From: Datnioides undecimradiatus
Taxonomy: Eukaryota > Chordata > Actinopteri > Lobotiformes > Datnioididae
Direction of reading: 5' to 3'
Assembly (NCBI GenBank): GCA_008933995.1
Contig: WARS01000034.1
Coordinates: 4,690,707 to 4,754,706, forward strand
Length of the DNA: 64,000 nucleotides
The stretch's first letter is position 1. Every line of letters starts with the position of its first letter. This document shows positions 30,601 to 33,600 of the stretch, piece after piece. The translations under genes were made by a program, and so were the position numbers. A model generated the notes under the pieces. The model did no database searches. It was not told where the DNA came from and saw only the letters and a program-made list of their open reading frames with translations.

Positions 30601-33600
30601 GCGGTGAACGGGGAGTCGCTGCTCGGACGCTCCAACCACGCTGCCATGGAGACGCTGAGGCGCTCCATGTCGTCAGAGGGAAACTCCAGGGGCACGATCC
30701 AGCTCGTGGTGCTGCGAACACCCAGACAGGTACGGCCGAGGGAGTATAATAGATGCATTTTAATGTAAGTTACAAGGAAATGCTGCTTTTTGGAAAAACA
30801 ACATTAACCGACATTTCTCCGCACGCTACATCCACGCTACCGACTTCAGTTAATTCCTTTTGAAGCTCGGGCGGATGTGGGGCAACATGTTCCACGGTTT
30901 GGTAGGATGAGTTTTGGTGCCATGAAACATTCAGGAACACTCGTGCATTATGAAACCTGCCCCCAGCGCGGCCCGACGCGTTCAGAAGACTCCCCGTAAG
31001 CAGCCGCCAGAGTTTTGACGGGGAAACGAATGACTCATTAGAATCACGCCTCCCGCTTTCGTGGCGTCGTCTGAGGCTGCGCTGTGCTGTATGAAATCAG
31101 GATGAAGCCTCATAACCCAACCGATTCCACTGCGATACGGATGATGCTTTTTATTTATTTAGTATTCAAAATGTAAGCACAGTTGGATTCGAGTAATGAC
31201 AGCATCAAAACAGAGGCTGCCTTTGTGACAGTGGCTGCCGTATAATTTGCTTGAGTGTTGGTTTATAGCTCTCGCCAAATCTGTATTCCGTGTCAGTGTT
31301 TCGGGCAACAAAACTAAAGTGGATGAGATTTAACAGTTTTTATTTGGCTTCCTATCAGCTCAGCTTCTTCCTCAGAGCGCGCGGCTGTTAACTGACACAC
31401 CGACAGGTAAAATTCTGGTTTTCCACGTCTTGTGTTCCACAGATGAGCAGCGCCAACCCTGCCCCGAGCGCAGCGGCGAACAGGTCCGCCGCCCATCAGC
31501 CGAGCACCCAAACAGCGCACAGCAATCAGGTACGAGTGGGTGACGCCGTTCACCAGGAGCAGCAGCCGCCCCCGCCCCGCCGCTCCTGCTCGCTCCTCCC
31601 CACGCTGAGGAGGCGAGCGTCGGAGCCGCTGCCTCACAGCCACAGGCAGCGTTACGCACAGAGGCCGGGGGAGACGCACACCAGATACACCTATGGTTTC
31701 AATCAAAGGGAGAGGCGTAGCGGTTACACATTCGGCTTCACACAAAGGGACGTTGAGTGCGGCGATGATGACACGCAACGTGATGTGTACAGAGCAGCTA
31801 CGAGTTACCAGTTTGGGTTAGTTAGTCACAGCCAAACGCTGAGCAGCTTCAGCAGACCCACGGAGGGGAATTTAAACAGCTGCGGTTATGGATACACACG
31901 TGGACACGCGCGCAGTCGAGCGCCAGCGGACACGCAGGGCCATGCGGTGCTCGACAACGCACGCAATCACGCGTTCGCTGACATTCAGGGCAACGCTCGC
32001 GGCCGCAAGTCCAGGCACGCGCGCAGCCGCACGCTGGACGCCATCCACACACAGGACGGCAACAGCTACACCGAAAACATCAGGGCGATGGCGGGGCAGA
32101 TGTACGGAGACCCACCCGCGCAGAGTAGGACGCCCACCCGCACAGAACAGAACAGGAACGCACACAGGTCTGCGGACAGATACGTGGACGCGCACGCACA
32201 CAACTACGCACACAACCGGGCTCTCACCAGACACCACCACCTCCGGCTGTCTGGCGGGCTCTGACACGTGCAGGCTGAGTTGCAAAAGGGGTGCAAGTGA
32301 CATTTTGGCAGGCGGTTCAAAGTGCACACGTGTAATCACAGAATCAGCGCAAGGAGACACTTCGGCTCTCGTTTGCACAGAATCCAACGATTTTAGCGAT
32401 TCATCTCAGTAAAACCGCGGCCGGAAAATGCCACTTTTCCCTCCGTCGCAGGAAGTACAGTAAGGTTTCGGTGATCGATGGCGTGGAAGCGTATTAATCA
32501 GGCTGAGAGCTTTTCCCTTTGCCAGAGCCACTAACTGTCACAGCATTAACTTTCAGCTCCCTGTTTAAAATATTACCCCCAAACTCAGCAAAACACGACA
32601 TTCCTCACCGTGTGCGGCCTCCTCTCCGCCTCTTTGGTTTGAACTCCCTAACATTAGCTGCAGCTCTTCTTCTTTTTTCAGTTTCCCCTTCAAACCACTG
32701 GCTCGTCTGCACACTGCGAAGGCTTTAATCTGCACTTTCCTGCTTTGTCTCTTTGTGTAAAGTTTTCTGATTTTTTTTTTTTTTTTTCATTTTTATTTTT
32801 AAGTCAATAAACCTTTGCTTCTCTGTCTCACCTGCCTGTTTCTCCTCTGTGGAATAAAGCTAATCTGAAGCCTCCTGCATGGTCCCTGCTCCTTCTGTTT
32901 TGCCGTCTGAGTCTCCTTTCCTTCCAAGCTTTTCTTCAGCCCTCGTCGCTCGCTCCAGACGCACGGACGCGTTTCATAAAAGTTCAACTTGGAAAAACGC
33001 GAGCGCAATTCGTCCTTTGAACCTTAAACGCACCGGAGACTGTAAATGTATAGCCACAGCAGTAGTCAGGCATTCACAGCCGTGCAGGTTATAATGAACA
33101 TATTTCGGGAACGCCTAATGCAAGCTGACATGAGTGGAGACGGCGCTCATGACTGCTCCGCGTAGCTGTGAACACGCTTCCCTTTCAGAAGTGATAGGAG
33201 CGTTAAACTCCAGACAGTGTGGAACGTGTGAACCTTTGCTTATTTTTACCTCTTTCGCTTTTGTCTGTTGAGAAACTGACTTTGCAGCGGCAGTGTCTTT
33301 ATTTGAACCGTGACTGATTATCTCAAAAGCTCATGAAGACGTCTGACGGCAGCTCAGGCCGACGCCTGGTCACAATGCGCTATAACGGGAGGGTCTGCGG
33401 ATTGACTGCCGTTGACCTGCCCATTGAGGCATTTACATCTCATCTACGCCACGCTCCCATCAGCGTCTGTGTGTGTGTGTGTGTTTGAGCCTGTGTGTGA
33501 TGAACGCTATCAAACCCGGTTCAAAGTTCAGTACACGTCTGAATAGTCCCTCTCCCGGCACCGTTAAACAGCCTGTCTGGTGACACCGTGGGCCAGCGCG

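Follow-up and report, generated by a model that had tools for sequence, protein, structure and literature searches.

The DNA analysed here, a stretch of 64,000 nucleotides referred to as the window (4690707–4754706 of contig WARS01000034.1, in a genome of 581 Mb), contains within a Par-3B gene an open segment (31443–32264) that is likely a real coding exon and that, judged from its sequence and setting, probably supplies the coding sequence of an alternative last exon in this fish gene. In the proposed mechanism, the PDZ3 donor (30730, phase 0) would be spliced onto the acceptor at 31443, and the transcript would be cleaved near 32.82–32.88 kb at an intronic poly(A) site, in place of splicing onward to 37404. 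The predicted product would comprise the N-terminal region and PDZ1–3 and would end in a 273-residue Arg/His-rich tail containing 13-residue repeats; the KSSSLESLQ and lysine-rich regions would be missing from it. A short protein of this type could bind PDZ ligands but not the downstream partners, and the competitor role envisaged in the original prediction would be a hypothetical consequence. We infer the splicing, polyadenylation and translation of this form, as well as any effect on polarity, from the features described below (Table 1).

The plus-strand exons of the window match human PARD3B. The PDZ3 exon, the proposed upstream splice partner of the terminal exon, matches the solved structure of Partitioning-defective 3 homolog (2k1z; phmmer E 1e-20) and the Pfam PDZ domain with an E of 0.00061, under the curated cut-off; Pfam PDZ matches occur in three exons of the gene, one of which exceeds that cut-off. 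Exons with CUB and F5/8 domains lie ~90–100 kb past the window, and one of these, at ~160 kb (window numbering), matches Neuropilin-2 (E 9e-43), the syntenic neighbour of PARD3B. Par-3-type PDZ domains, a downstream KSSSLESLQ region and a Neuropilin-2 neighbour, the features examined for membership in PARD3B, were all found. Also downstream of the window, a Par-3B exon (L017:5119–5295; RFGKKKDDKSKDG) is similar to human PARD3B. The stop-to-stop frame that contains the proposed exon (31392–32264, plus strand, 290 codons), the longest of the 29 open frames of at least 150 residues in the window, sits between the PDZ3 exon and the KSSSLESLQ exon, and this position agrees with the original prediction that the product would hold PDZ1–3 without the KSSSLESLQ and lysine-rich regions. 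The frame, its place in the gene and, within the limits given below, its codon-position bias are established.

Table 1. Positions (window numbering) of the proposed terminal exon, its signals and the surrounding Par-3B exons.
Feature	Position	Strand	Remarks
End-of-PDZ3 exon	30568–30729	+	Length divisible by 3; donor 30730 in phase 0, sequence GTACGG
3' splice site	31421–31443	+	Exon start 31443, phase 0; score 2.9, within the top 2.7% of AGs
Coding part of the proposed terminal exon	31443–32264	+	273 codons plus TGA; codon-position bias, scan rank
Donor-like GT inside the exon	31530–31531	+	Phase 0; score 4.2, top 0.8% of GTs
13-residue repeat stretch	31608–31763	+	Self-match score 53
Proposed 3' untranslated region	32265–32880 (end approximate)	+	TGTA 32756; AATAAA 32806 and 32853
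Likely next constitutive exon	37404–37542	+	Phase 0 to 1; acceptor 7.0 (top 0.1%), donor 5.0 (top 0.3%)
Likely further constitutive exon (SNGSYGH...)	38668–38815	+	Phase 1 to 2; acceptor 4.0, donor 1.8
KSSSLESLQ exon	53486–53701	+	70% identity to human PARD3B
Lysine-rich stretch	54269–54454	+	blastp against human PARD3B, E 5.7e-07; also ranked in the coding scans

Past the donor-like GT, the frame remains open for 244 codons by our count (31530–32261) and closes with a TGA at 32262–32264, as originally predicted. The accompanying statement that such long frames are rare in introns proved overstated on length alone: in simulations with the composition of the tail, 244 codons stayed open in 22 (order 0), 140 (order 1) and 254 (order 2) of 20000 trials, and 290 open codons were reached in 4 of 200 simulated 64-kb sequences of order 1 and likewise in 4 of 200 of order 2. 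The same window holds a 275-codon intron frame on the minus strand (26729–27556; chi2 3.9) without codon-position bias, which looks non-coding and shows what a long frame arising by chance can look like in this genome. The length of the frame by itself is weak evidence.

The case for coding is carried by the position bias. The codon-position chi2 of the tail is 30.6. None of 500 stop-free Markov sequences attained this value, whether of order 1 or of order 2; among 5000 phase-scrambled versions each, 1 (30-nt blocks), 7 (45-nt blocks) and 7 (60-nt blocks) did so. Between 31530 and 32261, read in the frame entered from 31443, A occupies 14% of the third positions versus 27% of the first and 33% of the second, the third-position value in the exons of the gene being 11%. 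Because A is also infrequent as the third base of fourfold-degenerate codons (20 of 118; the other forward frames have 53 of 166 and 52 of 143, the exons of the gene 36 of 283), the bias goes beyond amino-acid content. When the three forward frames were compared in 90-nt blocks, this frame was the best in 8 of 10 blocks within 31443–32342 (the exceptions being 31713–31802 and 31893–31982), but in none of the 3 preceding blocks and in 1 of the 7 that follow; with all six frames counted, it came first in just 6 of the 10. The coding signal lies in the segment from the acceptor at 31443 to the stop, and the position bias is unchanged across 31530. Taken alone, the first 315 nt of the tail (31530–31844), which hold the repeats, have no significant bias, with 56 of 500 and 54 of 500 null sequences scoring as high. 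The tail stretch is CA/CG-rich and alternates purines and pyrimidines, with an autocorrelation that is positive at even lags and mostly negative at odd lags; such an alternating composition suppresses stops and may not be fully modelled by the null sequences. The CpG observed/expected ratio is 1.02 at the frame, versus 0.71 in the exons and 0.73 in the window, so that part of the composition may be CpG-island-like. Elsewhere in the window, two neighbouring stretches in the 35751–37500 region have ratios above that at the frame, up to 1.25 (36001–36800), with 1.14 at 37251–38050.

The frame was also ranked in two coding scans, each covering 264 kb around the window. In the first, for which eight exons of this Par-3B gene formed the training set, it ranks 8th with a score of 18.8, the best segments that overlap no recognised exon scoring 14.6. 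The second scan, of 5979 open segments ≥30 codons long, drew its 808 training codons from neuropilin, from the other Par-3B copy and from two Par-3A copies, with the Par-3B exons of this gene excluded; there the frame ranks 13th of 5979 (score 19.3; next segment overlapping no recognised exon, 14.2), and its chi2 of 29.7 is the highest among the 31 frames ≥180 codons long. All twelve segments above it contain Par-3B or neuropilin-like exons, whose ends the segments overrun. Ranks 4, 6, 8, 9, 11, and 12 match human PARD3B, ranks 1, 2, 3, and 5 carry CUB or F5/8 domains (rank 5 under the curated cut-off), rank 1 being the Neuropilin-2 match, and ranks 7 and 10 were assigned by eye; since six neuropilin exons were in the training set, the high neuropilin ranks arise partly by construction, a reservation that in the first scan applies to the exons of this gene instead.

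Splice sites were ranked by a crude score against all AGs or GTs of the window. The acceptor at 31443 falls within the range of the clear acceptors of the gene (2.3 to 7.0), and its phase fits that of the PDZ3 donor. The donor-like GT at 31530 scores nearly the same as the PDZ3 donor (4.3), and it is possible that it makes 31443–31529 a cassette exon or the whole segment a composite exon. It is the only donor scoring >2 within 31441–32420; an internal exon spanning 31443–32264 through a later donor was rejected, none after 31530 up to 32420 scoring >2. At the other end, the coding-like frame ends in a stop ahead of a poly(A) signal, and the two AATAAA hexamers expected after the stop are present at 32806 and 32853. 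Both belong to the 8 of 27 plus-strand AATAAA in the window that have a TGTA within 100 nt upstream, and their downstream T-richness (0.34 and 0.38) is the highest of these eight, the others ranging from 0.12 to 0.30. As one AATAAA occurs in 21% of the 600-nt stretches of the window and two occur in 3.9%, the poly(A) elements give modest support.

Comparison with the other copies of the gene led to a corrected exon order. The PDZ3 exon is found at four genome loci, namely this window, C468 (85%), C9 (75%), and C2 (71%); we take C468 as the other Par-3B copy, and C9 and C2 as Par-3A copies. At C468, the next recognisable exon follows the PDZ3 exon after 3522 nt, starting in phase 0 and ending in phase 1, and it is followed by a TNGSYSH exon and then an ASKSMDL exon. 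The exon at 37404–37542 has the same phases and is likely the counterpart of the C468 exon that follows PDZ3, the sequence similarity between them being weak (tblastn E 0.14 and 0.27); the exon at 38668–38815 likewise has a weak match to the TNGSYSH exon (E 0.40). The shared phases and strong splice sites at 37404–37542 indicate that the PDZ3 donor fits 37404 directly, with no need of 31443–31529, the segment designated exon k in the original prediction. Within the 3522 nt of C468 no counterpart of exon k was found, the longest forward frame there being 111 codons, and in the 13156 bases of that copy examined no similarity to the tail was better than E 0.35. Given that absence and the fit of the PDZ3 donor to 37404, 31443–31529 is unsupported as a constitutive exon, and the original view of the tail as a simple extension of such an exon is not upheld; the part of that prediction that finds support is a candidate terminal exon that would yield a short Par-3B, with its coding-like frame, plausible poly(A) elements and position. 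With no tail exon in C468, an old age of the exon is also unsupported. In the two Par-3A copies (L029 and L030), the best segments after the PDZ3 exon, within 1.5 kb of it, score 10.3 and 5.4. As for the remainder of the gene model, the phases of 38668–38815 and 53486–53701 require a linking exon (phase 2 to 1) in 38816–53485, a place taken by the ASKSMDL exon in C468. That exon was not found in the window by motif or tblastn and may have diverged; a candidate at 42792 was dropped on reading its sequence.

The tail itself is repetitive, as had been noticed. The motifs YTYGFNQRE (31686) and YTFGFTQRD (31725) lie 13 codons apart, and SYQFGLVSH is present as well. The score of the best self-match, at an offset of 13 residues, was equalled by 0 of 200 shuffles (maximum 49). 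The repeat alignment spans 39 codons, with 6 identical, 7 synonymous and 26 changed (DNA identity, 47%), which on these small numbers suggests that the repeat is old and has diverged, and that it did not come from a recent duplication of the DNA. The last 244 residues include 35 Arg, 17 His, and 1 Lys. RRRASEP occurs in the tail, as predicted, and fits a relaxed 14-3-3 pattern, as a putative site. A Pfam search of the tail found no domain, and among solved structures there were two weak matches to antibody light chains (E 0.15 and 1.1), which were taken as chance. In its own genome, the tail has one DNA match and no second protein match under E 1; this single copy excludes a dispersed repeat or mobile element. 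No RNA family reached its gathering score in 30700–33200. The prokaryote and viral collections held no relative of the tail, as expected for a fish gene, and a literature search, which covered mostly open-access papers, returned no report of such an exon.

The strongest rival to the proposed terminal exon is a chance open frame: an intron stretch poor in T, rich in CpG and alternating CA/CG would happen to be free of stops and would not be translated. The simulated lengths, the existence of other long unbiased frames such as 26729–27556, the CpG ratio with the even-lag autocorrelation, and the lack of a homolog in the sources searched all agree with this explanation, and it retains appreciable weight. 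We nevertheless consider it unlikely, because the codon-position bias has the right direction and stays in phase from acceptor to stop, and because the frame outscores the segments outside recognised exons.

It is doubtful, too, that the segment is a composite exon, the model of the original prediction, in which 31443–31529 would be a real in-frame cassette and the tail would appear only in transcripts that bypass the donor at 31530. The strength of that donor, similar to the PDZ3 donor, and phase 0 at both ends of 31443–31529 would suit such an arrangement, whereas the absence of a counterpart from the other Par-3B copy, the direct fit of the PDZ3 donor to 37404, and the constancy of the position bias across 31530 argue against it. 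The composite exon shares the coding tail with the alternative last exon, and the two are not mutually exclusive, so that the confidence placed in them overlaps. Far less probable is a nested single-exon gene with its own promoter within the Par-3B intron: the frame does start with an ATG at 31443, followed by 273 codons, in a CpG-rich region, but this ATG comes immediately after an acceptor-like site in the correct phase and has C at −3, a poor Kozak context. An alternative last exon remains our preferred reading of 31443–32264.

A form of Par3 without the aPKC-binding part exists. Intronic polyadenylation and Par3/Par3L splice variants are, as kinds, already known. According to a 2025 paper (PMC12767855), Par3L (PARD3B) has numerous splicing isoforms, with Par6 binding limited to some variant (the reference given there is Gao, Macara and Joberty 2002), and mammalian Par3L does not bind aPKC, so that losing the aPKC region may matter less than the original prediction assumed. 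The likeness to the present gene is that of a family with many splice forms; the difference is that in the form proposed here, from one fish copy, a terminal exon would add a long new coding tail for which no relative is known. The use of intronic poly(A) sites is described in PMC5928244 as widespread and as yielding truncated proteins without C-terminal domains; in comparison, the site proposed here would end a 273-residue open tail with codon bias, its use being predicted. Zebrafish has four Pard3 proteins, including Pard3ba and Pard3bb, which contain three PDZ domains as well as the regions CR1 and CR3 (PMC11136496); the PDZ3-exon loci in this genome also number four, and the accessible part of that paper describes no such tail.

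Tentatively, we suggest that after the fish Par-3B duplication one of the copies acquired, or was the only one to retain, a terminal exon that encodes a 273-residue Arg/His repeat tail of no known relative, and that intronic polyadenylation may switch the full scaffold to a three-PDZ form with that tail and a possible 14-3-3 site (RRRASEP). If so, one Par-3B copy would make a scaffold that keeps the membrane-protein-binding PDZ domains and loses the downstream regions, the tail having appeared or survived in only one of the duplicates. It would then illustrate both the presence of a new coding tail in a polarity gene that is otherwise conserved and the divergence of duplicated genes through alternative ends.
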